Source of the DNA: Ideonella alba
GTDB taxonomy: Bacteria > Pseudomonadota > Gammaproteobacteria > Burkholderiales > Burkholderiaceae_C
DNA: 64,000 nt
NCBI RefSeq assembly: GCF_018069875.1
Contig: NZ_JAGQDF010000007.1
Span: 124,001-188,000 of the forward strand
Direction: 5' to 3'
Shown here: positions 21,464-48,736 of the stretch, piece after piece
How the letters are laid out: every line of letters begins with the position of its first letter
Position numbering within the stretch: the stretch's first letter is position 1
Position numbers and translations under genes: made by a program
Notes under the pieces: generated by a model
Seen by the model: the letters and a program-made list of their open reading frames with translations, nothing else
Databases searched by the model: none
Told to the model about the DNA's origin: nothing

Positions 21464-21467
<4 letters not shown>
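20664..21467 (-). CDS. Alpha/beta hydrolase of the box cluster
   Basis: Alpha/beta-hydrolase fold enzyme of 267 residues with oxyanion region VVLHEGLGSVSMW and nucleophile elbow GHSDGG (Ser). An acid appears in AIQGEDDPYG and the catalytic His in GCGHSPHRDQPE. Similar hydrolases occur in many box clusters, and a housekeeping role such as hydrolysing dead-end CoA thioesters has been suggested, but none is demonstrated here. It overlaps both the ligase and binding-protein genes by four bases, so it is firmly part of the operon. Confidence 0.85.
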
Positions 21468-23068
<1,601 letters not shown>

Positions 23069-23103: not shown

Positions 23104-24657
23104 TCAGAGCCGGGTGGCCGGACCCAGGGCCGCCAGCACCTCGGGGGCCGCCTGCAGCGCGCTGCGGCGGTGGTAGAAGTTCAGGGCCCGCAGGCCGCCC
23201 AGTTCCTCGCCGCCACCGGCGCGGCCGGGGCCGCCGTGCAGCGATTGCGGCATCACATTGCCGTGGCCGGTGTGCAGCCGCGCCACCGCAGGGGTGACGA
23301 TGTGCACACGGCCGTGCAGGTCGGCCAGCTCGGTGGCGCAGGCGGCCAGCGCCGCCGGGTCGTCGCCATAGAGCGAGCAGGCCAGCGAGCCGGCACCGCG
23401 GCGCACCAGGGCCTGGGCCTGGGCCAGGTCGTCGTAGGGCATCAGCGTGGCCACCGGGCCGAAGACCTCGGTGTCGTGCACCCGTGTGGCGGTGACGGGC
23501 TGCTCGCAGCCCAGCAGCACCGGTGCCACGCAGGCCGACTCCGGCCCGGCGCCAACCAGCGGCGTGGCGCGGCCATCGTGCAGCACCGTGGCTTCGCTCA
23601 GCAGCGTGACCAGGCCCTCTTCCACATGGCGCTTCTGTTCCTGGCTGACCAGCGCGCCCATGCGCACCGTCGCGTCACGCGGGTTGCCCACCACGGTCTT
23701 GCGCAGCTGGGCGGCGATCAGTTCGGCCGCCGCGGTGTACAGCGCACGCGGCACGAAGGCGCGGCGGATCGCGGTGCACTTCTGGCCCGACTTCACGGTC
23801 ATCTCGCGCGCCACCTCGCGGGCGAACAGCGACAACGCCTCGGAGCCCTCGGCCACCGGCAGCAGCAGCGCCGAGTTCAGGCTGTCGGCCTCGATGTTGA
23901 CGCGCACCGAGTGGCGCACCACGGCCGGGTGCGAGCGAATGACGGCGGCCGTCTCGGCCGAGCCGGTGAAGCTCAGCACATCCTCGCCCTGCAGCTGATC
24001 GAGCAGGCCGGCCGAGCTGCCGCAGACCACACTGAGCGCGCCCAGCGGCAGGATGCCCGCGGCCACCACATCAGCCACCATGCGCTGGGTCAGCCAGGCG
24101 GTGGCGGTGGCGGGCTTGACGATCACCGGCACCCCCGACAGCAGCGCCGGCGCCGCCTTCTCCCACAGGCCCCAGGCCGGGAAGTTGAAGGCGTTGATGA
24201 ACAGCGCCACGCCGCGGGTGGGGGTCATCACATGCTGCGACGCGAAGGCGTTGTCCTTGGCCAGCGCCACCGGCTCGCCGTCCAGCAGCAGCCGGGCCTC
24301 ACCGAGTTTGGCGCCCCAGCGGGCGTACTGGCCCAGGGTGTAGATCGCGCCGTCGATGTCCACCGCCGAGTCACTCTTCACGGTGCCCGAGTTGCGGGTG
24401 GCGATCTCGTCGTAGGCATCACGGTTCGCGACCAGCACCTCGCCGATGCGCGACAACAGCGCGGCGCGCTCACCGTAGCTGAGCGCCCGCAGCGCGGCAC
24501 CGCCCTGCTGGCGGGCGAAGGCAAAGGCCGCGCCCAGGTCCAGCCCGGCGCTGGACACCGTCACCAGCGCCTCGCCGGTGACCGGGTCGTGCAGCGTGGT
24601 GCCGGCGCCCTGGCCCGCCACCCATTGGCCGGCCACGAAGTTCTTCAGGGATTCCAT
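23104..24657 (-). CDS. boxD: 3,4-dehydroadipyl-CoA semialdehyde dehydrogenase BoxD
   Basis: NADP-dependent aldehyde dehydrogenase that oxidises 3,4-dehydroadipyl-CoA semialdehyde, the ring-opening product, to 3,4-dehydroadipyl-CoA. 517 residues from ATG 24657, in the long, PaaZ-N-like ALDH branch. Motifs are FINAFNFPAWGLWEKAAPAL, SFTGSAETA, the catalytic-Glu region NIEADSLNSALL and the Cys nucleophile in VKSGQKCTAIRR. It follows the DUF4863 gene by one base. Confidence 0.95.
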   Translation of the reverse strand: MESLKNFVAGQWVAGQGAGTTLHDPVTGEALVTVSSAGLDLGAAFAFARQQGGAALRALSYGERAALLSRIGEVLVANRDAYDEIATRNSGTVKSDSAVDIDGAIYTLGQYARWGAKLGEARLLLDGEPVALAKDNAFASQHVMTPTRGVALFINAFNFPAWGLWEKAAPALLSGVPVIVKPATATAWLTQRMVADVVAAGILPLGALSVVCGSSAGLLDQLQGEDVLSFTGSAETAAVIRSHPAVVRHSVRVNIEADSLNSALLLPVAEGSEALSLFAREVAREMTVKSGQKCTAIRRAFVPRALYTAAAELIAAQLRKTVVGNPRDATVRMGALVSQEQKRHVEEGLVTLLSEATVLHDGRATPLVGAGPESACVAPVLLGCEQPVTATRVHDTEVFGPVATLMPYDDLAQAQALVRRGAGSLACSLYGDDPAALAACATELADLHGRVHIVTPAVARLHTGHGNVMPQSLHGGPGRAGGGEELGGLRALNFYHRRSALQAAPEVLAALGPATRL

Positions 24658-24658
24658 C

Positions 24659-25129
24659 TCAGGCCTTGGTGAATTGGATCGCGCCCTCGGGCAGCAGGTA
24701 CAGCACGTAGGCGCGGCCACCGGTCACGGTGGGGCGGTGGGCACTGCCGGGCGGGTAGACCTTCCAACCGGCGGCCTGGCCGTCAAAGCGGGCGTCGCCG
24801 TCCAGCGGCATCACCAGGTCGATCTCGCCATTCGGGTGCACGTGGTGCGGGCCCACCACATCGCGCATGTCGACCACATCGACCGAAAAGCCATTCAGCG
24901 CCGGTGTCGGTTTGATCACCCGGCCGTAGCGGATGCCGCCGTGCTCGTGCGGGCAGATCCAGCCGGCGGCGTCACCGGCCCGGCAGGCCGCGACGATGGC
25001 TTCGAACAGCGGGCTGCCGGCCGGGTGGGTGCGGTTCAGTTCGGCGGCCAGCGCCTCATCCAGCGGGCGGCCGGCCAGCGAGGCGGTCAGCGGGGCGATC
25101 AGGTCCTGGAAGGTGTCGACAGTGCTCAT
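24659..25129 (-). CDS. DUF4863 family protein (hydroxylaminobenzoate lyase-like)
   Basis: 156-residue cupin-like protein of the DUF4863 family. Characterised members such as PnbB are 4-hydroxylaminobenzoate lyases of nitrobenzoate catabolism. Metal-ligand-like residues are visible in GPHHVHPNGEIDLVMP (His/His/Glu) and GSAHRPTV. It is the first gene of the minus-strand benzoate operon, directly under the BoxR-type operator. No nitroreductase gene is near, so its job in benzoate metabolism is open: perhaps handling of a CoA intermediate or a substituted benzoate. Confidence 0.8.
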   Translation of the reverse strand: MSTVDTFQDLIAPLTASLAGRPLDEALAAELNRTHPAGSPLFEAIVAACRAGDAAGWICPHEHGGIRYGRVIKPTPALNGFSVDVVDMRDVVGPHHVHPNGEIDLVMPLDGDARFDGQAAGWKVYPPGSAHRPTVTGGRAYVLYLLPEGAIQFTKA

Positions 25130-25195
25130 TCGGTGTCTCCTGGGCCTCGCTTCCCCGGGGGTTGCGAGGCTTGTGGAAATTTAGTGCATGTACGA

Positions 25196-25224
25196 AACTT
25201 ACCCGGCCGGAGCGGCCGCGTCAA
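25196..25224 (-). promoter_or_regulatory. Promoter of the minus-strand benzoate operon
   Basis: On the minus strand TTGACG (25224-25219), a 17-base spacer, then TAAGTT (25201-25196). It drives the DUF4863-boxD-bclA-transporter-pcaF operon. The BoxR-like site 25224-25237 abuts the -35, and a further TGCA at 25185-25188 sits near the expected start of transcription. Confidence 0.6.
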
Positions 25225-25237
25225 GCACTATATTGCA
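25224..25237. promoter_or_regulatory. BoxR-type operator, site 1
   Basis: AGCA-CTATAT-TGCA, one base off the TGCA-N6-TGCA pattern known for BzdR/BoxR operators. It lies in the boxR/DUF4863 divergent region and touches the -35 of the minus-strand operon, so it could control that operon and boxR itself. Confidence 0.55.
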
Positions 25238-25260
25238 TGCTTCGGGTAATCACTGAATCC

Positions 25261-26193
25261 ATGGACGACTTTGATCCGACTCTGGCCGACCCCCCCGCCA
25301 CCGAGCGCCCCAGCGACCCGCGCGACCCCTTCCTGACCGCGCTGGGCGAGCGCGTGCGCTCCTTGCGGGCGCGCCGCGGCCTGACCCGCAAGGCCTTGTC
25401 CCAACACTCTCAGGTGTCCGAGCGCCACCTGGCCAACCTGGAGCTGGGCGTGGGCAATGCCTCGGTGCTGGTGCTGCGCCAGGTCTGCCGCGCGCTGGAC
25501 TGCCCGCTGCCCGAACTGCTGGGCGACGAGACCAGCAGTTCACCCGAATGGGCGCTGATCCGCGACCTGCTGCGTGGCCGCAGCGAGGACGAGCTGCGCC
25601 GCGGCCGCATGGCGCTGACCGATCTGTATGGCCAGTCCGGCGCACCCGATGCACGTGCCCAGCGCATCGCGCTCATCGGCCTGCGCGGTGCGGGCAAGTC
25701 CACGCTGGGCCGCCTGCTGGCCGAGTCGCTGGACGCGCCCTTCGTCGAGCTGAACACCGAGATCGAGCGCGTCGGCGGCTGCAGCCTGCCGGAGATCCAC
25801 AACCTGCTGGGCTCGGCCGCCTACCGCCGCTACGAGCGCCGGGCCCTGGAAGAAACCATCCAGCTCTACCCGGACGCGGTGATCGCCACCCCTGGCGGCG
25901 TGGTCTCTGACCCGGCCAATTTCAACCTGCTGCTGGGCCACTGCGTCACCGTCTGGCTCAAGGCCACGCCCGAGGAACACATGGCCCGCGTGATGGCCCA
26001 GGGCGACCTGCGCCCGATGGCCGGCAACCGCGAGGCGATGGACGACCTCAAGCACATCCTGGCTGAGCGCACCCCCTTCTACAGCCAGGCCGATCTGCAA
26101 CTGGAAACCGGCGGCAAGCCGCTGGAGCAGGCTTTTGCCGAACTGCGCCGGCTGGTCGAGCCGATGCACCGGGCGGCTCAGGGTATGCACTAA
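25261..26193 (+). CDS. boxR: Transcriptional regulator BoxR (XRE HTH plus shikimate-kinase-like domain)
   Basis: Benzoyl-CoA-responsive repressor of box genes. From ATG 25261 it has 310 residues: an XRE helix-turn-helix (about 25-85, LTRKALSQHSQVSERHLANL), a linker, then a shikimate-kinase-like effector domain with P-loop GLRGAGKST (140-148). This architecture is specific to the BzdR/BoxR family, in which the second domain binds benzoyl-CoA. An in-frame ATG at 25237 would add eight residues but lies inside the operator. It is divergent from the DUF4863-boxD operon and upstream of boxC. Confidence 0.93.
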   Translation: MDDFDPTLADPPATERPSDPRDPFLTALGERVRSLRARRGLTRKALSQHSQVSERHLANLELGVGNASVLVLRQVCRALDCPLPELLGDETSSSPEWALIRDLLRGRSEDELRRGRMALTDLYGQSGAPDARAQRIALIGLRGAGKSTLGRLLAESLDAPFVELNTEIERVGGCSLPEIHNLLGSAAYRRYERRALEETIQLYPDAVIATPGGVVSDPANFNLLLGHCVTVWLKATPEEHMARVMAQGDLRPMAGNREAMDDLKHILAERTPFYSQADLQLETGGKPLEQAFAELRRLVEPMHRAAQGMH

Positions 26194-26302: not shown

Positions 26303-27973
<1,671 letters not shown>

Positions 27974-28070
27974 GCCCCACAGCCCACTTTCGACGTTGGG
28001 CGGCGCGGTTCCGGGTGGAGCGCGCCGCCACCGAAACACCACTCCCCCGATCCCGGCACACGGAGACACC

Positions 28071-29498
<1,428 letters not shown>

Positions 29499-29622
29499 CG
29501 CCAGGCCGGACGCCCGCCGGGCGCCGTCCCCGGCCTCGGCGGGTTCGAGACGACGGGTTTCACCCGCGCCTCAACCCGCCGACTTGCTTCGATACTTCGT
29601 CCCTCACTCCGAGGCACATGCC

Positions 29623-36617: not shown

Positions 36618-37505
36618 TCAGGCGCAGCGCTCGCGCGCCAGCGTGCGCAGCAGCGCCAGCGCTGGCGGCGGGCTGCGCCCGGCCAGCGTCACCAGGCCGA
36701 AGCGTGCCACGGCCTGCAGGGGCGGCTCCACCCTCAGCTCGGCCAGCCCGGGCGCCGCGGCGCGCACCGCGATCAGCACCGCATCGCTGGCGGCGGTGGC
36801 CTCGACCAGGCCCGCCAGATCGTCGCCGCGCAGCGTGACGCAGCGCTCGGGGTGGGCCTCGGGACCGTAGCGGTCCATCAGCACCGCGGCCACCGCGTCG
36901 CTCAGCGGCGTGGCGGCGATGGGCCAGGCCTGCAGCTCGGCAAAGCGCAGCGGTCGACGCTTGCGCAGCAGCGGGTGGCCGCGGCGGCAGAGAAAGCCGC
37001 CGGGCAGTTCGCCGATGATCTCGCAGCGCAGGTCCGGTGCCGGCGGCAGCGAATAGGCGTCCACCACCAGCGCGTCCAGCGCACGTGCGCGCAGCGCGTC
37101 CACCAGCAGCGCGGTGCCGCCGCGGCGCAGCTCCAGCCGCAGCCCCTGGCCCTGGGCGGCCACACGCTGCAGCAGCGGCACGGTCAGCAGCGCCCCCGGG
37201 CCCGAGCCCAGGCCCACGCGCAGCGTGCCAGCCCGTGCGCCGCGCACCGCCTGGCCCTGCGCCACCAGCTCGTCGGCATCGGCCACCAGCTGGCGCGCGC
37301 GGGTCAGCAGCTCGCGGCCCAGCGGCGTGGGTTCGGCGCGGCGGCCGATGCGGTCGAACAGGCGGCCGCCAACCTCGTCCTCCAGCGCCGCGATGCTGCG
37401 GCTGAGCGCGGGCTGGGTGAGGTGCTGGCGCTCGGCCGCCCGGCTGAACGAGCCGGTGTCGGCCAGGCTGATCAGGTGACGCAGCTGGACCAGGGTCATG
37501 ATCAT
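36618..37505 (-). CDS. LysR-family transcriptional regulator
   Basis: About 293-295 residues (starts at ATG 37505 or 37499). The winged helix-turn-helix motif is LTQPALSRSIAALEDEVGGRLF (residues 29-50 region), followed by a substrate-binding-like effector domain with HPLLRKRRPLRF. It is divergent from the Bug protein/amidohydrolase operon, so that operon is its likely target, with palindromes in the gap as candidate binding sites. The inducer is unknown; an N-acyl amino acid such as hippurate would fit the amidohydrolase. Confidence 0.88.
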   Translation of the reverse strand: MIMTLVQLRHLISLADTGSFSRAAERQHLTQPALSRSIAALEDEVGGRLFDRIGRRAEPTPLGRELLTRARQLVADADELVAQGQAVRGARAGTLRVGLGSGPGALLTVPLLQRVAAQGQGLRLELRRGGTALLVDALRARALDALVVDAYSLPPAPDLRCEIIGELPGGFLCRRGHPLLRKRRPLRFAELQAWPIAATPLSDAVAAVLMDRYGPEAHPERCVTLRGDDLAGLVEATAASDAVLIAVRAAAPGLAELRVEPPLQAVARFGLVTLAGRSPPPALALLRTLARERCA

Positions 37506-37538
37506 GAGTAGAACTCATTGAACAGAGCATTGCAATGC
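37504..37538. promoter_or_regulatory. Candidate LysR operator sites
   Basis: Two palindromes: ATGAGT-AGA-ACTCAT at 37504-37518, which contains the T-N11-A LysR signature, and the perfect 12-mer GCATTGCAATGC at 37527-37538. They lie in the 102-base gap between the divergent regulator and Bug genes. Confidence 0.55.
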
Positions 37539-37607
37539 ATTGGACTGCCGCGAGTGCGCTGCCTAGTATCTGCCCGACACCCACCCCCCCCTGCCGGAGC
37601 CTGACCC

Positions 37608-38612
37608 ATGACTTCCCTGCTGCGTCGCATTCCCACCCTGGTCGCCACGCTGATGGCCAGCCTGTGTCTGGCCACTGGTGCCCTGGCCCAGTCGGCCGCC
37701 AAGCCGATGAACCTGATGGTGCCCTACCCCGCCGGCGGCCTGTCGGACGTGATCGCCCGCATCGTCAACCAGCCGCTGGGCAAGGCGCTGGGCCAGCAGG
37801 TGATCGTCGAGAACCTGGGCGGCGTCAGCGGCGCGCTGGGCGCGATGAAGGTGCTGGGCGCCCCCTCGGACGGCCAGTACCTGTTCCAGGGTTCGCCCAA
37901 CGAGCTGATCCTGGCTCCGCTGGCCAGCAACGCGGTCAAGTTCAAGAGCGAGGACTTCCGCCTGGTGCAGATGATCGGCGTCTCGCCGATCGCCATCCTG
38001 GCCCGCCCGGGCCTGCCGGCGAAGAACGTGGATGAGCTGGTGGCGCTGGCCCGCAAGGCCGCCGCCGACAACAAGCCGCTGACCTACGCCAGCGTGGGCA
38101 TCGGCTCGTTCTACCACGTGCTGGGCGAGCACTTCTCGCAGACCATCGGCGCGAAGATGACGCACATCCCCTACAAGGGCATCGCGCCGATCTTCCAGGA
38201 CCTGGGTGGCGAGATGGTGGACATCTCCATCATCGTCAGCGGTGCGCAGGTGGGCGGCCTGGTGGACAGTGGCCGCCTGAAGATCGTCGGCACGCTGGCC
38301 CCGGCCGGCAAGGTGGAAGCCCCGTTCCTGAAGCAGTACCCCAGCGTCAACGACAGCAAGTCGGTCAAGGACTTCGCGTTCAACATCTGGACCGGCTACT
38401 TCGTCAAGAAGGACACGCCCGAGCCGGTGGTGCAGGCCCTGCACAAGGCGCTCTCCACCGTGCTGGCCGACCCCGCCGTGCACACCCAGCTGGAGCAGCA
38501 GGCGGTGATGCCCGCCAAGCCGCTGAGCCTGGCCGATGCCTCAAGCGAATACGCCGCCCAGACCGCGCGCTTTCGCGCCATCGCCAAGGCCATCAAGCTG
38601 GAAGCGCAATGA
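37608..38612 (+). CDS. Bug-family (TctC-like) substrate-binding protein
   Basis: Periplasmic tricarboxylate-transport-type receptor, 334 residues with signal peptide ending TGALAQ. The Bug signature MNLMVPYPAGGLSDVIARIV and the ligand-loop sequence LFQGSPNELILAPLA are visible. No TctA/TctB membrane genes are nearby, as usual for the many orphan Bug proteins of Burkholderiales. It overlaps the amidohydrolase gene by four bases, so its ligand is likely that enzyme's substrate, possibly an aromatic N-acyl glycine. Confidence 0.9.
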   Translation: MTSLLRRIPTLVATLMASLCLATGALAQSAAKPMNLMVPYPAGGLSDVIARIVNQPLGKALGQQVIVENLGGVSGALGAMKVLGAPSDGQYLFQGSPNELILAPLASNAVKFKSEDFRLVQMIGVSPIAILARPGLPAKNVDELVALARKAAADNKPLTYASVGIGSFYHVLGEHFSQTIGAKMTHIPYKGIAPIFQDLGGEMVDISIIVSGAQVGGLVDSGRLKIVGTLAPAGKVEAPFLKQYPSVNDSKSVKDFAFNIWTGYFVKKDTPEPVVQALHKALSTVLADPAVHTQLEQQAVMPAKPLSLADASSEYAAQTARFRAIAKAIKLEAQ

Positions 38613-39778
38613 GTGCCGCCACGCTGGACGACTTCGTCGCGCTGCGGCGCGATCTGCACCAGCATCCGGAACTGGCCTTCGAGGAGCACCGCAGCGCCGG
38701 CCTGGTGGCCGAATGCCTGCGCGAATGGGGCTACGAGGTGGTCACCGGCCTGGGCGGCACCGGCCTGGTGGGCACGCTGCGCCGCGGCAGCGGCCCGCGC
38801 CGCCTGGGCCTGCGCGCCGACATGGATGCGCTGCCGATCAGCGAGCAGTCCGGCCGCCCCTGGGCCAGCTGCAAGCCGGGCCTGATGCACGCCTGCGGCC
38901 ACGACGGCCACACCGCGATGCTGCTGGCGGCCGCGCGTCGCCTGGCCGATGAAGGCGGCTTCGACGGCACGCTGCACCTGATCTTCCAGCCGGCCGAGGA
39001 AGGCGGCGGCGGCGCGTTGCGCATGATGGCCGACGGCCTGTTCGAGCGCTTCCCCTGTGACGCCGTCTTCGCCATGCACAACATGCCCGGCACGCCGCAG
39101 GGCCACCTGGTGTTCCGCGACGGCCCGGCCATGGCCTCCAGCGACTACGCCACGATCACCCTGCACGGCGTGGGCGGCCACGGCGCCATGCCCCAGCACA
39201 CCGCCGACCCGGTGGTGGCCGCAGCCAGCCTGGTGATGGCGCTGCAGACCGTGGTCTCGCGCAATGTGGACCCACTGCAGGCGGCGGTGGTCACGGTGGG
39301 CGCGCTGCAGGCCGGCCAGGCCAACAACGTGATTCCGGCCAGCGCCCGGCTGGAGCTGAGCGTGCGTGCGCTGGACCCGGGCGTGCGCGCCACGCTGCAG
39401 CAGCGCATCCGCGCGCTGGCCGCGGCCCAGGCCGAGGGCTACGGCCTGCGCGCCGAGGTCGACTGGCGGCCCGGCTACACCGTGCTGGTCAACCATGCCG
39501 AGCCCACCGCCTTCGCCCGCGCCGTGGGCGCCGAGCTGCGCGGCGAAGCCGGCATCACCCGCCAGGGCCCGCCGCTGACCGGCAGCGAGGACTTCGCCTT
39601 CATGCTCGAGCGCGTGCCCGGCAGCTACCTGCTGATCGGCAACGGCGGCCCGGAGTCCAGCGTGCCGGCCCATGCCTGCATGGTCCACCACCCCGGCTAC
39701 GACTTCAACGACGACAACATCGCCGTCGGCGCCGCCTACTGGACGCTGCTGGCGCGGAGGTTCCTGATTCCCGCGTAA
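38609..39778 (+). CDS. M20D amidohydrolase, hippurate hydrolase / IAA-amino acid hydrolase type
   Basis: Zinc amidohydrolase of 389 residues that splits N-acyl amino acids. The M20D hallmark HACGHDGH (residues 94-101, with the bridging Cys96 and His98) is intact. It is followed by FQPAEEGGGGALRMM with catalytic Glu and AMHNMPGTP with His. The C-terminal metal His is in VHHPGYDFND. Campylobacter HipO and plant IAA-amino acid hydrolases share this size and pattern. With hippurate it would release benzoate and glycine, which suits the flanking genes; the substrate is inferred. Confidence 0.85.
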   Translation: MSAATLDDFVALRRDLHQHPELAFEEHRSAGLVAECLREWGYEVVTGLGGTGLVGTLRRGSGPRRLGLRADMDALPISEQSGRPWASCKPGLMHACGHDGHTAMLLAAARRLADEGGFDGTLHLIFQPAEEGGGGALRMMADGLFERFPCDAVFAMHNMPGTPQGHLVFRDGPAMASSDYATITLHGVGGHGAMPQHTADPVVAAASLVMALQTVVSRNVDPLQAAVVTVGALQAGQANNVIPASARLELSVRALDPGVRATLQQRIRALAAAQAEGYGLRAEVDWRPGYTVLVNHAEPTAFARAVGAELRGEAGITRQGPPLTGSEDFAFMLERVPGSYLLIGNGGPESSVPAHACMVHHPGYDFNDDNIAVGAAYWTLLARRFLIPA

Positions 39779-39785
39779 ACTTGAT

Positions 39786-39988
39786 CCCTGGCAGGAGAGT
39801 GCTGCGGCCCTGCGCCGCAGCCACCGAAGGCGCAAACTCCCATGCACGCTCAGGTCCCGTACTGCCACCTCACACACGCCGTCTGGAGAGCCGTCAGCGC
39901 CTGTTCACACCAGGGCTGACGCACCGAAGGAGCAAGGCCCGGCCCGCAAGGCTGGCGCCGAATCTCTCAGGTACCAAGGACAGGGGGA
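39786..39988 (+). promoter_or_regulatory. Tandem glycine riboswitch
   Basis: Two successive aptamers with the conserved core: GGAGAG near 39793, then CACCGAAGGCGCAAACTCC and CTCAGGTCC (about 39822-39856); a second GGAGAG near 39885, then CACCGAAGGAGCAAGGCC and ATCTCTCAGGTACC and GGACAGGGGG (to about 39988). This is the classical double-aptamer layout. It lies 66 bases upstream of the dadA-like gene and probably turns it on with glycine. No separate expression-platform terminator is obvious; control may be at translation. Confidence 0.92.
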
Positions 39989-40054
39989 GCGGCACATCGG
40001 CAGCCTCACCGCTGCGGATGCCATTGCTGCCCATCCTTGAATGGAGACTCTCCC

Positions 40055-41338
40055 ATGCACGTCATCGTGTTGGGTGCCGGCCTGCTCGGCACCACGTCCG
40101 CCTACTACCTGCGCCAGCTCGGCCACGAGGTCACGGTCGTCGACCGCCAGGCCACGCCGGCCGCTGAAACCAGCTTCGCCAACGGCGGCCAGATCTCGGT
40201 CAGCCACGCCGAGCCCTGGGCCAACCCCGGTGCCCCCGCCAAGCTGCTGAAGTGGCTGGGCCAGGAAGACGCCCCGCTGCTGTTCCGCCTGCGCGCCGAC
40301 ATGCGCCAGTGGCTGTGGGGCCTGCAGTTCCTGCGCGAGTGCACGCCGGGCCGCACCCGCCACAACATCGAGCAGATCGTCCGCCTGGGCACCTACAGCC
40401 GCAGCGAGCTGCAGGCGCTGCGCGCCGAGCGCGGCATCGAGTACGACCAGCGCACCCAGGGCATCCTGCACTTCTACACCAGCCAGAAGGAATTCGACGC
40501 CGCCGAAGCGCCCGCGCAGCAGATGCGCGATCTGGGCTGCGACCGCCGCGTCATCAGCGCCGATGAAGCGGTGAAGCTGGAGCCCGCGCTGGCCCACATC
40601 CGCCCGCAGCTCGCCGGCGCCACCTACACCGCCGAGGACGAGTCCGGCGACGCCAACCGCTTCGCCCGCGAACTGGTCAGGCGCTGCGAGGAAGACGGCG
40701 TGCGCTTCCTGATGAGCCACACCGTCACCGCGCTGCGCACCGCCGGCGGCGAGATCGACCACGTGGAAGCCACCGACGCCGAAGGCCGCTTCCAGCGCCT
40801 GCGCGCCGACGCCTACGTGCTGGCGATGGGCTCGCTGAGCCCGGTCTATGCGCAGACACTGGGCATCTCGCTGCCGATCTACCCGGCCAAGGGCTACTCG
40901 GTGACGATGCCGGTCAAGGACGCCAGCAAGGCGCACCAGGTCTCGCTGACCGACGACGAATTCAAGCTGGTCTTCTCGAGACTCACCTCGCCGGCGCTGC
41001 CTGACGGCACACCGGGGGGCGACCGCCTGCGCATCGCCGGCACCGCCGAGCTCAACGGCTACGACCGCGACCTCAACCGCGTGCGCTGCGAAGCCATCGT
41101 GCGCCGCACCGAGGAACTGTTCCCCGGCGCCGGCGACACCGAGCAGGCCCAGTTCTGGACCGGCCTGCGCCCGGCCACGCCGTCCAACGTGCCGCTGATC
41201 GGCCGCAGCCGGGTGGGCAAGCTGTTCCTCAACACCGGCCACGGCACGCTGGGCTGGACGCATGCCTGCGGCTCGGGCAAGAGCATTGCGCGCATCGTCA
41301 GCGGCATGAAGCCGGAACTGGATTTCGCCTTCCAGTGA
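40055..41338 (+). CDS. dadA: D-amino acid dehydrogenase (DadA-like FAD oxidoreductase)
   Basis: FAD-dependent oxidoreductase of 427 residues from ATG 40055 (GGAGA site upstream). The FAD motif GAGLLG (7-12), the DadA block NGGQISVSHAEPWANPGAP and the C-terminal GHGTLGWTHACGSGKS are clear. DadA oxidises small D-amino acids at the membrane. The glycine riboswitch in its leader implies a role in glycine or glycine-derived amine oxidation here, like glycine oxidase. It directly follows the amidohydrolase gene. Confidence 0.88.
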   Translation: MHVIVLGAGLLGTTSAYYLRQLGHEVTVVDRQATPAAETSFANGGQISVSHAEPWANPGAPAKLLKWLGQEDAPLLFRLRADMRQWLWGLQFLRECTPGRTRHNIEQIVRLGTYSRSELQALRAERGIEYDQRTQGILHFYTSQKEFDAAEAPAQQMRDLGCDRRVISADEAVKLEPALAHIRPQLAGATYTAEDESGDANRFARELVRRCEEDGVRFLMSHTVTALRTAGGEIDHVEATDAEGRFQRLRADAYVLAMGSLSPVYAQTLGISLPIYPAKGYSVTMPVKDASKAHQVSLTDDEFKLVFSRLTSPALPDGTPGGDRLRIAGTAELNGYDRDLNRVRCEAIVRRTEELFPGAGDTEQAQFWTGLRPATPSNVPLIGRSRVGKLFLNTGHGTLGWTHACGSGKSIARIVSGMKPELDFAFQ

Positions 41339-41396
41339 TGGCGCGGCCGATCGGTCGGTGGCGGACCGACGGCCACCACCGCCGGCGCTGATCCGG

Positions 41397-42332
41397 CTAC
41401 ACAGCCGCACCGCGGCCCCGGCCCGACTGCCGCAAGGTGCGCAGCACCTCGTCACGCAGCAGACCGGCCAGGGCCTGCGCCGCGGTGGACAGACGCCGGC
41501 CCTGCAGCGTCACCAGGCCGATCGGGCGCTGCACCTCCGGCTCGATCAGGCGGCGCTGCACCACGTCGGCGCCGCGCGCCACCCGCGCCGCCAGCTCGGG
41601 CAGCGCCGACACGCCCAGGCCCGCCGCCACCATCGCATTGATCGACGCCAGGTGCTCCACCTCGTAGCGCGGCTCGAAGCGCTGGCCCAGTTGCAGCAGC
41701 GCCGCGTCGGCGTACTGGCGCACGCTGGTGGGCGCGGGCATCGAGATGTGCGGCAGCTCGGCCACGCGCCGCCAGGTCAGCGGCGCACGGCTGCGCGCCA
41801 GCGGGTGCCGGGCGCTCAGCAGCAGCACGAAGGGGTCGCTGGCCAGCGCAACATAGGACAGGTCGGCGTAGGCCGGATTCTCGGCCGTCAGCGCGAAATC
41901 CACCTCGCCCGAGCGGACCAGCTCGAAGGAGGCCACCGACAGCGTGTCGAGCAGGTCAAGGCGCACGCCCGGATGTTCGGCGGCGAAGCGCGCGAACACC
42001 GCGGGCACCACGGTGGCGGCCAGGGACGGCAGCGCCGCCACGCGCACCCGGCCCTGGCGCAGCTCGGCCACATCGCGCACCGCCGCCGCGGCCGCGCCGG
42101 CCTGTGCCTGCAGGCCGCGCGCATGCACCAGCAGGGCCTGGCCGGCGTCGGTCAGGCGCACCGCACGGGTGCTGCGCTCAAACAGCGCGGCGCCGAATCC
42201 GGCCTCCAGGCGCGCCACCACGCCGGACACCGCGGGCTGCGACAGGTGCATGCGCTCGGCGGTGCGCCGAAAGCTGAGCGTGTCGGCCAGCGAGAGAAAG
42301 ACCTCGATTTCGCGGATCGTCCAATTGATCAT
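41397..42332 (-). CDS. LysR-family transcriptional regulator
   Basis: 311 residues, N-terminal wHTH with LSFRRTAERMHLSQPAVSGVVARLE, effector domain of CbnR-like type with RYEVEHLASINAMVAAGLGVS. It is divergent from the dehydrogenase/BKACE/Bug operon and probably controls it. The ATG at 42332 lies directly beside a perfect palindrome, and its ribosome site is poor, a hint of autorepression through that site. Confidence 0.88.
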   Translation of the reverse strand: MINWTIREIEVFLSLADTLSFRRTAERMHLSQPAVSGVVARLEAGFGAALFERSTRAVRLTDAGQALLVHARGLQAQAGAAAAAVRDVAELRQGRVRVAALPSLAATVVPAVFARFAAEHPGVRLDLLDTLSVASFELVRSGEVDFALTAENPAYADLSYVALASDPFVLLLSARHPLARSRAPLTWRRVAELPHISMPAPTSVRQYADAALLQLGQRFEPRYEVEHLASINAMVAAGLGVSALPELAARVARGADVVQRRLIEPEVQRPIGLVTLQGRRLSTAAQALAGLLRDEVLRTLRQSGRGRGAAV

Positions 42333-42351
42333 GATGGATTATCAATCCATC
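42333..42351. promoter_or_regulatory. Candidate LysR operator palindrome
   Basis: GATGGATT-ATC-AATCCATC: two perfect 8-base arms around three bases, immediately upstream of the LysR start codon and 48 bases before the divergent dehydrogenase ATG. Confidence 0.6.
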
Positions 42352-42399
42352 GCCAAATGCGACTGGACCGGATCAGCGCGGCTTCCTAGACTGCGCCGC

Positions 42400-43350
42400 A
42401 TGAACCCAGCCCTGCCCGCCCATGCGGTGGTCATCGGTGGCGGCACGATGGGCGCCGATGTGGCCGTCGTGCTGGCGCGTGGTGGCCTGCATGTGACCGT
42501 CGTCGAGCGCGCTGCCGCCCAGTCCGAACGCGCCGCGCAGCGCATCGGCCGCGAGCTCGCCGCACTCGGCCGTCCGCATTCGCCGCGCCTGGTCGCCAGC
42601 CTTGAACAGGTCGAGTGGTCCGGTGTCGGCCTGGTCGTGGAGTGCATTGTCGAGCAGCTCGACGCCAAGCAGCAGCTCTTCGCCGAACTGGTGCGCCGCG
42701 CGCCGCCCGACGCGCTGCTCACCAGCAACAGCTCGGGCCTGCCGATCAGCCAGATCGCCCAGGGCCTGCCCACCCAGGCACGCATGTTCGGTCTGCACTT
42801 CTTCATGCCGGCGCACCTGGTGCCGCTGGTCGAGGTGGTGATGGGGCCGGCCAGCGACGAGGCCGGCGCCCAGCGCTTGATGGCCACGATGCGCCGCTGC
42901 GCCAGCGTGCCGGTGCTGGTGCGCAAGGACCGCCCGGGCTTTCTGGCCAACCGGCTGCAGCACGCGCTGGCGCGCGAGGCCTTTGCGCTGCTGGACGACG
43001 GCGTGGCCAGCGCCGAGGACATCGACGCGGCCGTGCGATTCGGCTTCGGCTTTCGCTTCCTGGCCGCCGGGCCGGTGCTGCAGCGCGAGCACGCGGGCCT
43101 GGACATCCACTGCGCCGCCGCCGCCACGATCTACCCCAGTCTGTGCAACGACAGCCAGCCCGCCCGCGTGCTGCGCGAGCAGGTGGCCGCGGGCCGCGTG
43201 GGCATGAAGGCCGGCGCCGGCTTCACCGACTGGCCGGACGAGCGCCGCGACGCCGAGCGTGCCCGCTACGACCGCCTGCTGCGCGCTGGCCTGGACCTGC
43301 TGCGGGATGAGCTGCCGCCGCTGCCCTCGTCCCCCGCTTCGCCGCCATGA
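42400..43350 (+). CDS. 3-hydroxyacyl-CoA dehydrogenase NAD-binding family protein (short form)
   Basis: 316 residues of the short beta-hydroxyacid dehydrogenase branch that includes L-carnitine dehydrogenase and lambda-crystallin/L-gulonate dehydrogenase. Visible motifs are GGGTMGADVAVVLARGG (NAD), SNSSGLPISQIA, the catalytic His in GLHFFMPAHLVPLVEVV and RPGFLANRLQHALAREAF. Coupled by ATGA to the BKACE gene, it should oxidise a 3-hydroxy acid or its CoA ester to the beta-keto acid used by BKACE. Carnitine is one candidate. Confidence 0.85.
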   Translation: MNPALPAHAVVIGGGTMGADVAVVLARGGLHVTVVERAAAQSERAAQRIGRELAALGRPHSPRLVASLEQVEWSGVGLVVECIVEQLDAKQQLFAELVRRAPPDALLTSNSSGLPISQIAQGLPTQARMFGLHFFMPAHLVPLVEVVMGPASDEAGAQRLMATMRRCASVPVLVRKDRPGFLANRLQHALAREAFALLDDGVASAEDIDAAVRFGFGFRFLAAGPVLQREHAGLDIHCAAAATIYPSLCNDSQPARVLREQVAAGRVGMKAGAGFTDWPDERRDAERARYDRLLRAGLDLLRDELPPLPSSPASPP

Positions 43351-44162
43351 CCGACCCGCTGATCCTCACCGTCGCGCCCAATGGCGCCTACAAGCAGTCG
43401 GCCGACCACCCGGCCGTGCCGCTCACCCCGGCGGCCCTCGCAGACACGGCCAAGCGCTGCCTGGACGCGGGCGCCGCCATGCTCCACCTGCACATCCGCG
43501 ATGCGCAGGGTCGCCACAGCCTGGACATCGAGGGCTACCGCGAAGCGCTGCGCGTGGTGCGCGCCGCTGTCGGCGAGGCGATGGTGCTGCAGATCACCAG
43601 CGAAGCCGCCAAGGTCTACCGCGCCGAGCAGCAGATCGCCATGGTGCGCGCACTGCGTCCCGAAGCGGTGTCGGTGGGCCTGCGTGAGATTGACCAGCCC
43701 GAGATCGGCGAGGCCGGACTGGCCGCCTTCCTGGCCGAGCTGGTCGCGCAACGCACGATGACCCAGGTGATCCTGTACGACCTGGCCGACCTGCAGCGCT
43801 GGCAGGCCTTGCGCCGCGCGGGCACGGTGCCCGACGCGCCGTGGTTTCTGCTCTTCGTGCTGGGCCGCTACAGCGCCACCCAGACCTCCGACCCGCGCGA
43901 GCTGCTTCCCTTCGTGCAGGCGCACACCGGCACCGAGCCCTGGGCGATGTGCGCCTTCGGACCCAGCGAGAACGCCTGCGTGGCCGCGGCAGCGGCACTG
44001 GGCGGCCATGCCCGCGTGGGCTTCGAGAACAACCTGCGCCTGCGCGATGGCCGTCTGGCGCCCGACAACGCGGCCCTGGTGCGCCAGGCCGCCGAAGTGG
44101 CCCATGCACTGGGCCGCCCACTGGCCACGGCCGCGCAGATCCGTGCGCGCTTCGGCGCCTGA
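43347..44162 (+). CDS. Beta-keto acid cleavage enzyme (BKACE, DUF849)
   Basis: 271-residue DUF849/BKACE-family protein, which transfers an acetyl group from acetyl-CoA while splitting a beta-keto acid, releasing acetoacetate and a CoA ester. The zinc-binding HLHIRD and the early TVAPNGAYKQ are as expected; the second metal motif appears in RVGFENNLRLRDG near the end. The protein is slightly shorter than most BKACEs (about 275-310). Substrate unknown; the linked dehydrogenase suggests a 3-keto acid made in situ. Confidence 0.9.
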   Translation: MTDPLILTVAPNGAYKQSADHPAVPLTPAALADTAKRCLDAGAAMLHLHIRDAQGRHSLDIEGYREALRVVRAAVGEAMVLQITSEAAKVYRAEQQIAMVRALRPEAVSVGLREIDQPEIGEAGLAAFLAELVAQRTMTQVILYDLADLQRWQALRRAGTVPDAPWFLLFVLGRYSATQTSDPRELLPFVQAHTGTEPWAMCAFGPSENACVAAAAALGGHARVGFENNLRLRDGRLAPDNAALVRQAAEVAHALGRPLATAAQIRARFGA

Positions 44163-44201
44163 ACCCACGGTCGACCCACAACCACTCACAGGAGACTTCC
44201 C

Positions 44202-45182
44202 ATGACGCTGTCGCGCCGCACCGCTGTATCCGCCCTGGCCCTGGGCCTGGGCCTTGGCACGCTGGCCCACGCGCAGGCGCCCTACCCCAACGGGCCGATC
44301 CGTTTCCTGGTGCCCTACCCGCCCGGCGGCCCCACCGACCTGATGGCCCGCATGCTGCAACCGGAGCTGCAAAAGCGCCTGGGCGTGCCGGTGCTGGTGG
44401 AGAACAAGGGCGGCGCCGGCGGCAACCTAGGCAGCGCGGAAGTTGCCAAGCAGGCGCCGGCCGACGGCCAGACCCTGCTGCTGGCCGCCAGCGGCCCGAT
44501 GGCGGTCAACGGCACGCTGTTCCGCAACATGCCCTTCAATGCGATCAACGACCTCGCGCCGGTGGTGCAGCTGTCAGCCTTCCCGCTGGTGCTGGAGGTG
44601 CATCCGTCGCTGAACGTGAAGACGCTCAAGGAGTTCCTGGCGGTGGCCAAGGCGCAGAAGGAGCCGTTCACCTTCGCTTCCGCGGGCAATGGCACGCCCC
44701 AGCACCTGGCGGGCGAGCTGTTCTCGCGCGCCGCGGGCGTGCCGCTGGTGCATGTGCCCTACCGGGGCGCCGGCCCGGCGCTCAACGACGTGCTGGGTGG
44801 CCAGGTCAAGGTGATGTTCGACATCCTGGGCAGCTCGCTGCCGCACATCCAGGCCGGCAAGCTCCAGCCGATCGCGGTGACCTCGGCCCAGCGCAGCCCG
44901 GCGCTGCCCAAGGTGCCCACCATGGCCGAGGCGGGCCTGGCGAATTTCGAGACCACCGCCTGGCACGGCGTGGCGGTGCGCGCCGGCACGCCGGCGCCGA
45001 TCATCGCCCGGCTCAACGCCACCTTCCTCGACATCTTCAAGGACCCGGCCTTCCGCCAGAAGTGGGAGGCGATCGGCACGCCAGTGGTGGCCGGCACGCC
45101 CGAGGCCTTCGGACAGCTGGTGCGCACCGAATCGGTCCGCCTGGGCCGCCTGGTGCGTGACACCGGCGTCACCGCCGACTGA
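44202..45182 (+). CDS. Bug-family (TctC-like) substrate-binding protein
   Basis: 326-residue periplasmic receptor with a Tat-like or Sec signal (SRRTAVSALALGLGLGTLAHA) and the Bug motif IRFLVPYPPGGPTDLMARML. The end of the first lobe carries SAGNGTPQHLAGELF. Third gene of the LysR-controlled dehydrogenase/BKACE operon, so it should bind the operon's substrate. Only the receptor is encoded here, without TctAB. Confidence 0.9.
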   Translation: MTLSRRTAVSALALGLGLGTLAHAQAPYPNGPIRFLVPYPPGGPTDLMARMLQPELQKRLGVPVLVENKGGAGGNLGSAEVAKQAPADGQTLLLAASGPMAVNGTLFRNMPFNAINDLAPVVQLSAFPLVLEVHPSLNVKTLKEFLAVAKAQKEPFTFASAGNGTPQHLAGELFSRAAGVPLVHVPYRGAGPALNDVLGGQVKVMFDILGSSLPHIQAGKLQPIAVTSAQRSPALPKVPTMAEAGLANFETTAWHGVAVRAGTPAPIIARLNATFLDIFKDPAFRQKWEAIGTPVVAGTPEAFGQLVRTESVRLGRLVRDTGVTAD

Positions 45183-45192
45183 CCGCCCACGG

Positions 45193-45224
45193 ACAAAGGG
45201 GCGCTCGCCCGGGACGCCCCTTGT
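45193..45224. terminator. Possible shared hairpin between convergent genes
   Basis: ACAAAGGGGCG pairs with CGCCCCTTGT (one bulged A) between the Bug gene stop and the convergent boxB2 stop. No proper T-run on either strand, so it is at best a weak bidirectional terminator. Confidence 0.4.
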
Positions 45225-45245
45225 TCGCTCAACGCCGCGAGGCGC

Positions 45246-46745
45246 TCAGTCGATCTTCACGTACTCGTAGTCCACCGGCTGCTGGTTGATGCCCATCCGC
45301 GGCGGGGCGATCCAGCTGGCGTACTGGCCGGCCTCGTGGTGGGGCTTCATCAGCGAGTTGATGAAGTCCAGGTCCTCGGCATTGGGCAGCCACTCGTGCT
45401 TGCTGGCCTCCCAGACCTCGGCGCTCATGACCTCGCCGCTGGGGCTGATCTTGTGGCCGGCGAACTCGCCGATGCGGCGGTTGAAGCCCTTGTGCGGCTG
45501 GGTGATCTTGAAGCTGATGCCGGCCTTCTCGATGATCTTGTTCCAGCGGTCGATGCCGCCCTGGCAGTCGGCGATGTAGTCGTCGAGCAGGCGGGAGTTG
45601 ATAGCGCGCAGCGCCGGCACGTCTTCCCACACCAGCTCGCCGCCCACCACGCGCTGCACGGGGTAGGTGGCGTCCTGCAGCTGGTGGTCGTCGCCCTCGA
45701 GCTTGGCCTCGTTGAAGCGGCCCTTCAGGCCGGTGTTGAAGGCGTCGGCGCCGTTGGAGCTGATCTCGCTGCCGAACAGGTCGCGCGTCACGCTCATGTG
45801 GAAGTTGGCCTTGCGCTGCAGCAGCGGCAGGTCGACCACGCCGAGTTTGCGGATGGCGTCGGTGTCGTACGGGTCGGTGATGCCGGCCTTGACCATGGCC
45901 GCGCAGGTGGCTTCGATCGTGCGGCCGACGCCGGTCTCGCCGACGAACAGGTGGTGCGCCTCTTCGGTGAGCATGAAGCGGCAGCTGCGGCTCAGTGGGT
46001 CGAAGCCACTCTCTGCCAGCGCGGCCAGCTGCATCTTGCCGTCGCGGTCGGTGAAGTAGGTGAACATGAAGAAGCTCAGCCAGTCGGGCGTCTTCTCGTT
46101 GAAGGCGCCCAGGATGCGCGGGTTGTCCTGGTGGCCGCTGCGGCGCTCCAGCAGGGCCTGGGCCTCTTCGCGGCCGTCCTTGCCGAAGTACTTGACCAGC
46201 AGGTAGACCATCGCCCACAGGTGGCGGCCCTCTTCCACGTTCACCTGGAACAGGTTGCGCATGTCGTACAGGCTAGGGGCCGTGGCGCCCAGCCAGCGCT
46301 GCTGCTCGACGCTGGCCGGCTCGGTGTCGCCCTGCACCACGATCAGGCGCTTAAGCAGCGAGCGGTACTCGCCCGGCACTTCCTGCCAGGCCGGCTCGCC
46401 CTTGTGCTTGCCGTGCGGGATGGTGCGGCCTTCCACCTTGGGCGCCAGCAGGATGCCCCAGCGGTACTCGGGCATCTTCACATAGCCGAACTTGGCCCAG
46501 CCGGCCGGGTCCACGCCCACTGCGGTGCGCAGGTAGACGTCGGCGTTCTGGAAGCCTTCGGGGCCCATTTCCTTCCACCAGTCGACGTAGTTGGGCTGCC
46601 AGCTCTCCAGGGCGCGCTGCAGTTGGCGGTCGCTGGACAGGTCGACGTTGTTGGGGATGCGGTCGTCGTAGTTGACCTCGACGAACTTGTCGCTCTCGAT
46701 CGATTCACGGTCCTCGACCAGCGAGTCGGTGTTCAGGGTGCTCAC
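45246..46745 (-). CDS. Second benzoyl-CoA 2,3-epoxidase oxygenase subunit, BoxB paralogue
   Basis: 499-residue BoxB-family di-iron oxygenase. Compared with the copy at 28071 it has about 20 extra N-terminal residues (LNTDSLVEDRESIESDKF) and many substitutions, yet keeps all iron-ligand motifs: QGDTEP, NVEEGRHLW, FTDRDG, LTEEAHHLF. Specific inserts such as AGITDPYDTDAIR are absent from the first copy. It starts at GTG 46745 with a GAGGAG site, divergent from a CoA ligase, with BoxR-like sites between. It may epoxidise a different aryl-CoA or serve under other conditions; BoxA must be shared. Confidence 0.93.
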   Translation of the reverse strand: MSTLNTDSLVEDRESIESDKFVEVNYDDRIPNNVDLSSDRQLQRALESWQPNYVDWWKEMGPEGFQNADVYLRTAVGVDPAGWAKFGYVKMPEYRWGILLAPKVEGRTIPHGKHKGEPAWQEVPGEYRSLLKRLIVVQGDTEPASVEQQRWLGATAPSLYDMRNLFQVNVEEGRHLWAMVYLLVKYFGKDGREEAQALLERRSGHQDNPRILGAFNEKTPDWLSFFMFTYFTDRDGKMQLAALAESGFDPLSRSCRFMLTEEAHHLFVGETGVGRTIEATCAAMVKAGITDPYDTDAIRKLGVVDLPLLQRKANFHMSVTRDLFGSEISSNGADAFNTGLKGRFNEAKLEGDDHQLQDATYPVQRVVGGELVWEDVPALRAINSRLLDDYIADCQGGIDRWNKIIEKAGISFKITQPHKGFNRRIGEFAGHKISPSGEVMSAEVWEASKHEWLPNAEDLDFINSLMKPHHEAGQYASWIAPPRMGINQQPVDYEYVKID

Positions 46746-46787
46746 GGCTGTCTCCTCGGGGGGTGTCGGTGGACTGAGGGTTTTCCA

Positions 46788-46801
46788 TGCACTTTGATGC
46801 G
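46788..46801. promoter_or_regulatory. BoxR-type operator, site 5
   Basis: TGCA-CTTTGA-TGCG, one base off TGCA-N6-TGCA, on the boxB2 side of the divergent gap. Confidence 0.5.
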
Positions 46802-46829
46802 TTAACCCTCACGGCGTATGCAGTATCAT
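46802..46829 (+). promoter_or_regulatory. Candidate promoter of the ligase/thiolase operon
   Basis: TTAACC (46802-46807), 16-base spacer, TATCAT (46824-46829). The -10 lies inside the BoxR-like site 46819-46832 in exactly the register seen at boxC. The -35 is poor. Confidence 0.5.
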
Positions 46830-46832
46830 GCC
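46819..46832. promoter_or_regulatory. BoxR-type operator, site 6
   Basis: TGCA-GTATCA-TGCC, matching the boxC site 26225-26238 at 12 of 14 bases and covering the predicted -10 of the ligase gene. Confidence 0.6.
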
Positions 46833-46912
46833 TGTCGTTCGGTCGGCACTTTGCGCTAGATCAGAAAAACAGTGCATCGCGCCGCGGCCGCCCACCGCTG
46901 CAGGAGACACCC

Positions 46913-48724
46913 ATGGCCACCTTCGTCGACGACACCGACAACGTCGCGCCGCCCCGCGCCGAACTGCTCACGCTGACCGACGGCAGCTTCGTGCTGCGCT
47001 CGCCGCAAGCGCTGGGCCCCTACGCCCGCTGCATCGGCGACTGGCTGGAGAAGTGGGCGAAGGACACGCCCGATGCGCTGGCCGTGGCCGAGCGCGCGCC
47101 CAGTGGCGACTGGCGCCAGCTGACCTGGGCGCAGCTGCGCGCCGGTGTGGGCCGGGTGGCGCAGGGCCTGCTGGGTCTGCACCTGCCGGCCGACAAGCCG
47201 GTGGTGGTGCTGTCCGACAACTCGGTCGACCACCTGGTGCTGATGCTGGCGGGCATGCACATCGGCCGTCCGGTGTGCACCGTCAGCAGCGCCTACTGCC
47301 GCCTGAGCAAGGACTACGTGAAGATCCGCGAGATCGTGCAGATGCTCGATCCGGCGCTGGTCTACGCCAGCGACGCTGCCACCTACGGCCCCGCCATCCG
47401 CGCCTGCCTGGACGGCGGCGCGCTCAAGGGCGTGGTGGTGCTGGGCACCGGCGCCGACGAGGTGCCCGGTGCCTTCCCCTGGGACACCCTGGCCAGCCGC
47501 CCCGAGGGCCCGGGCGTGATGCAGGCCTTCGGCCGCCTGCTGCCCGACACCGTGGCCAAGTACCTGCTGACCAGCGGCTCCACCGGCCACCCCAAGGTGG
47601 CCATCAACACCCACCGCATGCTGTGCGCCAACCAGCAGATGATGGCCCAGACCTGGCGCTTCCTGCGGCGCGAGAAGCCGGTGCTGCTGGACTGGCTGCC
47701 CTGGAGCCACACCTTCGGCGGCAACCACAACCTGAACATGGTGCTGTGCCACGGCGGCACGCTCTACATCGACGACGGCCGCCCGGTGCCTGGCGCGATC
47801 GAGAAGACGGTGCGCAACCTCAAGGACTGCCAGCCCAACATCCACTTCAACGTGCCCCGCGGCCTGGACATGCTGATGGGCTTCTTCGAGGACGACCTGG
47901 CCTTCGCCAAGAAGGTGCTGTCACCGCTGCGCGCCGTGTTCTACGCCGGCGCCGCGCTGCCGCAGGCCAGCTGGCAGCGGCTGCAGGCGATCGCCGCCAA
48001 GGTGCGCGAGGAACCGCTGTGGCTCACCACCTCCTGGGGCTCCACCGAGACCGCGCCGGCCGTCACCAGCGCCCACTTCATGCTGGAGGGCGCCGGCTGC
48101 ATCGGCCTGCCGCTGCCCGGCACCGAGCTGAAGTTCATCCCCAACGGCGAGAAGCTGGAGCTGCGCGTGCGCGGCGTCAACATCTTCCCCGGCTACCGCG
48201 GCCAGCCGCAGCTCAGCGCCGAGGCCTTTGACGAAGAGGGCTACTACCGGATCGGCGACGCCGGCTTCCTGGTCGATCCGGCCCACCCCGAGAAAGGCGT
48301 GATGTTCAATGGCCGCGTGGCCGAGGACTTCAAGCTGACCACCGGCACCTGGGTCTCGGTGGGCACGCTGCGGGTGAAGCTGGTGTCGGCGCTGGCGCCG
48401 CTGGCCACCGATGCGGTGATCACCGGCCATGATCGCGACGAGATCGGCGCGCTGCTCTTCCTCAGCCCCGCCGGCCAGGCGATGGAGCGCGAGGCGCTGC
48501 ACGCCAAGGTGCAGGCGGCGCTGCAGGAATTGAAGCGCGGCGGCGGCTCATCGCAGTGCCCGGCACGCGTGCTGCTGATGACCGAGCCGCCCAATGCCGA
48601 CGCCGGCGAGATCACCGACAAGGGCTACATCAACCAGCGCGCCGTGCTCAGCCGCCGCGCGGTGGAGGTGGCCACGCTGTACGCCGAGACGATCGACGCG
48701 CGCGTCGTCGCGCTGGGTCACTGA
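46913..48724 (+). CDS. Aryl-CoA ligase, feruloyl-CoA synthase-like
   Basis: 603-residue ANL-superfamily ligase from ATG 46913 (AGGAGA site). P-loop [18 protein letters not shown]5 motif [18 protein letters not shown] and A7 motif [10 protein letters not shown] are intact. The C-terminal Lys region [14 protein letters not shown] differs from the usual PRTxTGK. Length and the [16 protein letters not shown] helix resemble feruloyl-CoA synthases. No feruloyl-CoA hydratase (ech) is nearby, so a benzoate analogue or other aryl acid is as likely as ferulate. It is paired with BoxB2. Confidence 0.85.
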
Positions 48725-48736
48725 GAGGACGCCCCG

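Follow-up and report, generated by a model that had tools for sequence, protein, structure and literature searches.

A 64,000-nucleotide stretch of Ideonella alba DNA (contig NZ_JAGQDF010000007.1, positions 124,001 to 188,000; referred to here as the window) contained, at positions 36618-41338, a short gene unit in which a putative hippurate hydrolase is followed by a tandem glycine riboswitch. The unit begins with a LysR-type regulator on the minus strand (36618..37505; Pfam HTH_1 and LysR_substrate), which is divergent from an orphan Bug/TctC-type solute receptor (37608..38612; Pfam TctC, 130 bits). The receptor gene and all elements that follow are on the plus strand. These are an M20D amidohydrolase, the candidate hippurate (N-aroylglycine) hydrolase (38609..39778), whose reading frame overlaps that of the Bug receptor by 4 bases; two glycine aptamers (39782..39868 and 39873..39993); and a DadA-like flavin adenine dinucleotide (FAD) oxidoreductase, which is a candidate glycine dehydrogenase (40055..41338). 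Every feature that the original prediction had placed in this order was recovered at its position, and, judged by its sequence, each part is an ordinary member of its family.

The M20D amidohydrolase matched TIGR01891 over its whole length (349.8 bits, cut-off 153.75). Its closest solved structure was 1ysj (E 1.6e-69), and other relatives in the PDB were 1xmb, 6slf, and 4ewt. Residues C96, H98, E130/E131, H157, and H360 were invariant across 20 aligned M20D members of the cassette defined below, and these Cys, His, Glu, His, and His residues presumably form the metal site. The DadA-like protein exceeded the cut-off of NF001933 (PRK00711; 484.5 bits against 383) and stayed below the equivalog cut-off for the glycine oxidase ThiO (TIGR02352; 115.8 against 250.8 bits). 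Its start was placed at the ATG at 40055, which is preceded by GGAG (40043-40046), and the mechanical open reading frame begins earlier, at a TTG at 40037.

The Rfam model RF00504 reported the second aptamer only (39873..39993; 50.3 bits, E 2.4e-7, gathering threshold 32). A covariance model, R1, trained on 24 family aptamers but not on the window's own first aptamer, detected both the first aptamer (39782..39868; 43.3 bits, E 6e-10) and the second (39873-39992; 56.0 bits). The riboswitch is therefore tandem, as had been predicted. A separate classical tandem glycine riboswitch precedes gcvT in the same genome, in which aptamers were found only on contigs C1 and C34. The two share the tandem aptamers, whereas the riboswitch of the unit lies between an amidohydrolase gene and a flavoprotein gene, where its first aptamer begins 3 bases past the M20D stop codon. 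In 19 of 21 loci measured, which had been selected for a riboswitch directly following M20D, the first reported aptamer began 3-31 bases past that stop; the two exceptions had gaps of 92 (L097) and 182 bases (L095), each with only one aptamer reported. Gaps of 3-31 bases leave hardly any room for a promoter, so either the M20D transcript would enter the riboswitch or a promoter would lie within the M20D gene. Because the first aptamer begins so close to the M20D stop, the riboswitch in the window is probably an intra-operon gate.

Recurrence of the cassette and its glycine-degrading partners

Recurrence was examined within the window's family, first in 100 genomes and then in a larger sample of 399 genomes from 141 genera. 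The positions of riboswitch, DadA, and M20D coincided in several of the 100 genomes. Close relatives of the window's M20D (E<=1e-155) were located at 89 places, in 80 of the 399 genomes and 46 of the 141 genera. These 89 places were compared with 18 more distant M20D loci from the 100-genome sample and with the best 80 loci from named genomes. A locus was regarded as cassette-bearing when a LysR, Bug, or MFS homologue stood beside M20D, and architectures rest on tblastn searches with LysR, Bug, MFS, TRAP, DadA, PRK12409-type, GcvP, and SdaA proteins. The gene order is not confined to this genome or its closest strain, an outcome that would have counted against the original prediction: the cassette was present at 80 of the 89 close places, 38 of them with the riboswitch, at none of the 18 distant loci, and at 8 of the 80 loci from named genomes. 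A LysR homologue adjoined M20D in most related cassette loci. The transporter was Bug in 32 of the 38 riboswitch loci, an MFS protein in four (best model TIGR00883, under its cut-off), and TRAP in L104.

The riboswitch was associated with the cassette and not with M20D in general. Within 10.5 kb of M20D, a distance counted only as far as each stretch reached, it was found in 38 of 80 cassette loci against 0 of 27 other loci in the family set, and in 1 of 8 against 0 of 72 in the named-genome set (combined, 39/88 against 0/99; Fisher p 5e-16, which ignores relatedness). The 38 riboswitch-bearing family loci represented 26 genus codes in a hand tally. In a FastTree phylogeny built with 165 of the 187 M20D proteins (22 were omitted for being short or, among those from named genomes, for identity under 50%), all 39 riboswitch loci belonged to a single 96-row group with a Shimodaira-Hasegawa-like support of 96. 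Riboswitch presence on this tree required 20 state changes, at least 11 of them forced by well-supported branches. Six loci with M20D and no riboswitch (L108, L113, L270, L275, L278, and L279) shared a neighbouring amidase and as many as three further gene families, and this group probably acts on a different substrate.

The partner next to the cassette in the 38 family loci was of the DadA type in 17, of the PRK12409 type in 19 (including a contig-end fragment in L103), and consisted of gcv genes alone in two; the two oxidoreductase types are only 36-40% identical. Furthermore, gcvP occurred within 9 kb in 8 of the 38 loci, and sdaA was also present in seven of these eight. Family models confirmed gcvT, gcvH, and gcvP in L114 and sdaA in L114 and L247, and the gcv and sdaA calls at the remaining loci rest on tblastn similarity. 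Two loci, L247 and L248, combine sdaA, a riboswitch-oxidoreductase pair, Bug, M20D, LysR, and a riboswitch with gcv genes. With M20D present or not, a riboswitch was found upstream of the DadA gene in 29 of 30 loci examined (exception L054), and it stood before 12 of 13 PRK12409-type genes (exception G080). Since both families sit under the riboswitch even without M20D, both are best read as candidate glycine-oxidizing enzymes. The cassette, the riboswitch, and glycine-degrading partners recur together, and for this reason the gene context strongly supports the glycine half of the proposed logic: the cassette very probably releases glycine.

The riboswitch and dadA could instead form a separate glycine-detoxification gene that lies downstream of the cassette by chance, with an unrelated M20D substrate. 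Consistent with this, riboswitch-DadA pairs in the 100-genome sample mostly stood apart from M20D, and the cassette adjoined them only in G000, G009, G011, G058, G091, and, rearranged, G012. However, the same cassette is also joined to oxidoreductases of the second family and to gcvTHP with sdaA, none of the 99 other M20D loci was near a riboswitch, the gap between the M20D stop and the aptamer is at most 31 bases in 19 of 21 loci measured, and DadA stands beside M20D in L224, L226, L229, and L232, where a riboswitch was not detected. A chance neighbourhood is therefore very unlikely. A reading in which M20D deacylates N-acyl-D-amino acids, DadA oxidizes the D-amino acids, and the riboswitch reports general amino-acid status would agree with the placement of the DadA protein in the D-amino acid dehydrogenase subfamily. 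It appears more improbable still, because a pair of glycine aptamers stands before dadA, a DadA paralogue of the same genome with 54% identity (G000:C30:34721-35980) has no riboswitch, and the partner that can take the place of DadA is the glycine cleavage system.

The LysR-divergent promoter motif

The intergenic region between LysR and Bug in the window contained an exact match to AATGCATTGGAC (37534..37545, plus strand; palindrome AATGCATT), a putative LysR operator that overlaps a -35-like TTGGAC, and a putative -10 hexamer, TAGTAT (37564..37569, plus strand), 18 bases past TTGGAC. In the window alone, this match was not above chance when two mismatches were allowed. Across LysR-divergent intergenic regions, AATGCATTGGAC was present exactly in 46 of 71 cassettes and with at most one mismatch in 59 of 71, and only four more sites were found in these loci (2.49 Mb, both strands) and one site in 3.74 Mb of non-cassette loci. 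The motif was first noticed by eye and then counted in those same sequences. A TA-T hexamer (at least four of six matches) usually stood 18 and rarely 19 bases downstream in the 71 regions, the 18-base spacing being the best among four spacings tried. A generic scan for sigma-70 promoters detected nothing promoter-like in 37450-41450, and a search of the cassette intergenic regions for the classical T-N11-A dyad gave nothing consistent. Because AATGCATTGGAC is kept across the cassette promoters, one orthologous regulator probably drives these cassettes, whether the riboswitch is present or not. Extra AATGCATTGGAC-like sites lay outside the LysR intergenic region in L137 (near 11391, minus strand) and L265 (near 8630, plus strand), and these sites in Limnohabitans-type loci possibly mark a second regulon member.

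Benzoate genes and the substrate of the amidohydrolase

The benzoate half of the logic relies on neighbouring genes for aromatic degradation. The window contains a complete box cluster, composed of a benzoate-CoA ligase family protein (21464..23068, minus strand; TIGR02262, 812 bits), a 3,4-dehydroadipyl-CoA semialdehyde dehydrogenase of the box pathway (23104..24720, minus strand; NF008868, 860 bits), a box-type benzoate regulator (25162..26193, plus strand; NF006015, 433 bits), and, all on the plus strand and over cut-off, boxC (26303-27973; TIGR03222), boxB (27996-29498; TIGR03225), and boxA (29584-30909; TIGR03224). The claim that the unit is next to a full benzoyl-CoA pathway thus held for the pathway itself (21464-30909), but the cluster lies about 5.7 kb from LysR and is not directly adjacent. 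A second boxB paralogue (45246..46745, minus strand; TIGR03225, 890.9 bits) was located 3.9 kb downstream of dadA. In a sister genome, G259, whose M20D is 95% identical, the box cluster and the second boxB flank the unit as they do in the window, and in G373 box genes with the ligase and aldehyde dehydrogenase lie at least 12 kb from M20D. Of the 64 M20D-positive genomes with boxB, g1 and g59 were the only ones in which the two genes lay within 15 kb of each other. A riboswitch-DadA pair without an M20D match was also observed about 2 kb from boxB in G064 (contig C23:42273-47140).

Genes for the other benzoate route, ben-cat, were close to the cassette in three genera. In G238, M20D, MFS, the riboswitch, DadA, pcaI, pcaJ, a thiolase (pcaF), pcaD, benE, catBCA, and benABCD follow each other on one strand, in a run broken by one opposite-strand gene. 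In G217, the riboswitch-oxidoreductase unit adjoins pcaIJF, catBA, and benABCD, and in G011, pcaD-benE-catBCA-benABCD, identified by similarity to G238, precedes LysR-Bug-M20D-riboswitch-DadA. Family models confirmed benB, catC, pcaD, catA, catB, pcaI, and pcaJ of G238 and benB of G217. Fifteen of the 80 M20D-positive genomes carried about 18 benA copies between them, and three benA-cassette pairs within 13 kb were seen against 0.09 expected (rough p 1e-4), a linkage that emerged from wider stretches of genomes chosen by benA position. Among box-negative genomes, benA was found in 7 of 16 that were M20D-positive against 2 of 24 others, five of the seven being from one genus. G268 was considered as a fourth ben neighbour and rejected, as its cluster (L296, 12000-18900) consists of anthranilate dioxygenase, catA, and catB, about 10 kb from a cassette in which a riboswitch was not detected.

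Several results weigh against benzoate as the acid that is released. The distance windows for linkage were picked after the data had been seen, and box linkage alone was not significant (2 genera against 0.5 expected, p 0.09). Most of the cassette stretches compared showed no benzoate gene, and 9 of the 16 box-negative M20D-positive genomes were also without benA. When stretches of the same width were compared, box, ben, and pob probes gave matches in 4 of the 88 loci with the cassette and in 3 of the 99 M20D loci lacking it, and two or more ben, cat, or pca genes were found in the cassette loci L234 and L269 (G238 and G217) as well as in the non-cassette loci L187 and L198. An enrichment of genes for aromatic degradation next to cassette M20D was accordingly rejected, since these stretches do not differ from those of other M20D. 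At the level of whole genomes, with overlaps read by eye from the matches listed, boxB was present in 64 of 80 M20D-positive against 146 of 319 other genomes, and pobA was present in 70 of 80 against 195 of 318. Because the excess of pobA matches that of boxB, the co-occurrence marks the M20D-positive genomes as aromatic degraders generally and not box users particularly, and box co-occurrence was rejected as benzoate-specific evidence. In addition, a scan of the window's M20D with NCBIfam reported no model specific for hippurate hydrolase.

These points would suit a different N-acylglycine as the substrate, such as a short-chain acyl, phenylacetyl, furoyl, or hydroxybenzoyl conjugate, perhaps specific to each genus, with the nearby benzoate genes being incidental. 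Apart from LysR and transporters, the most recurrent partners of the cassette are glycine and serine genes, benzoate genes are close in only five genera, and transporter types differ between loci. The anthranilate dioxygenase of G268 points the same way, as does the control gene pobA in G076, which is convergent to and abuts the M20D cassette (L094, 6402-8758), the only such case among the matches listed. The G076 neighbour hints at use of hydroxyhippurate in that species. On the other hand, ben-cat clusters stand within 13 kb of M20D in three genera, one of these clusters runs straight on from DadA on the same strand, and both the box cluster and the second boxB flank the unit in the window. 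On balance, a different conjugate seems unlikely, and the cassette is somewhat better read as an N-aroylglycine utilization unit, with hippurate or a close relative as its substrate and hippurate foremost. The predicted conversion of hippurate to benzoate and glycine is thus well founded in gene context for its glycine half, whereas the benzoate half draws on box genes in two genera and ben-cat genes in three. Outside the cassette, the M20D of Marinomonas hwangdonensis (L187, 1243-12200) lies about 4 kb from benE-benDCBA and is perhaps an independent hippurate hydrolase.

Proposed mechanism and relation to known systems

From these arrangements we infer a scheme that extends from the substrate and the regulator ligand to co-transcription, switch direction, and glycine oxidation. 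LysR, at the conserved AATGCATTGGAC promoter, would sense the conjugate or its acid and switch on Bug and M20D. The M20D hydrolase would cleave the conjugate into benzoate and glycine, and the benzoate would pass to the box pathway nearby. The transcript would continue past the M20D stop into the tandem glycine riboswitch, and a rise in glycine would open expression of the DadA-like flavoprotein, which would oxidize glycine, presumably to glyoxylate and ammonia. We tentatively propose, with slightly less than even confidence in the two ideas jointly, that this is a widespread undescribed catabolic unit whose transcript is gated twice, by LysR and then by the product glycine through a riboswitch that opens the gene for its own oxidation, and that the cassette joined unrelated glycine-degrading genes several times.

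Counting against the scheme as a whole are the 49 of 88 cassette loci that had no riboswitch in the compared stretch (six of these stretches were shorter than 12 kb) and the RNA folding, from which neither an expression platform nor the direction of the switch emerged clearly. In the lowest-energy fold, GGAGAG of the second aptamer seems to pair with CUCUCC directly before the start codon; this motif is absent from most leaders of related dadA genes compared, and for this reason folding is not used to call the switch ON or OFF. A scan of the plus strand of 37450-41450 revealed no intrinsic terminator with a T run, which favors translational control, a point that folding did not decide.

Animals excrete hippurate and other glycine conjugates as major products, and M20D amidohydrolases include HipO-type hippurate hydrolases. 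The whole-length TIGR01891 match also relates the window's protein to indole-3-acetic acid (IAA)-amino acid hydrolases, YxeP, and acylglutamine aminoacylase; among the M20D proteins of the tree, the cassette proteins form a distinct group marked by the LysR-transporter cassette and the promoter motif. The unit's oxidoreductase resembles DadA (PRK00711), over whose cut-off it scores, but belongs to a riboswitch-controlled group apart from the 54%-identical copy. The box cluster of the window corresponds to the aerobic benzoyl-CoA cluster, with boxABC, ligase, aldehyde dehydrogenase, and regulator each scoring above its cut-off, and we know of no N-acylglycine entry step in the usual box cluster.

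Passages from three surveys of glycine-riboswitch regulons (PMC3766115, PMC12452182, PMC2211319) mention gcv, glcB, serC, sdaA, glyA, and transporters. In the main texts, "hippurate" does not occur in any of the three, "D-amino acid" does not occur in PMC3766115 and PMC12452182, and neither "D-amino" nor "dadA" occurs in PMC2211319; the sole mention of a glycine oxidase in PMC12452182 is thiO under thiamine pyrophosphate (TPP) control. The open-licence papers searched, some of them represented by title or start of the abstract, contained no such unit and no environmental bacterial operon for hippurate or other glycine conjugates. The arrangement is new to that literature, and the original prediction, too, knew of no described unit with this logic. 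If the scheme is correct, it would assign a testable function to a large set of M20 peptidases, Bug receptors, and "D-amino acid dehydrogenases," and would exemplify an intra-operon riboswitch responding to what the enzyme encoded directly upstream produces.

Two further features of the window were observed. A second cluster downstream of the unit (41397-49984) contained a LysR gene, a 3-hydroxyacyl-CoA dehydrogenase-like gene, a BKACE gene, a further Bug-like gene, the second boxB on the opposite strand, an acyl-CoA synthetase-like gene, and a thiolase, and it may handle a substituted benzoyl-CoA. At 9774-9835, a Betaproteobacteria toxic small RNA was detected (Rfam RF02278, 67.8 bits).

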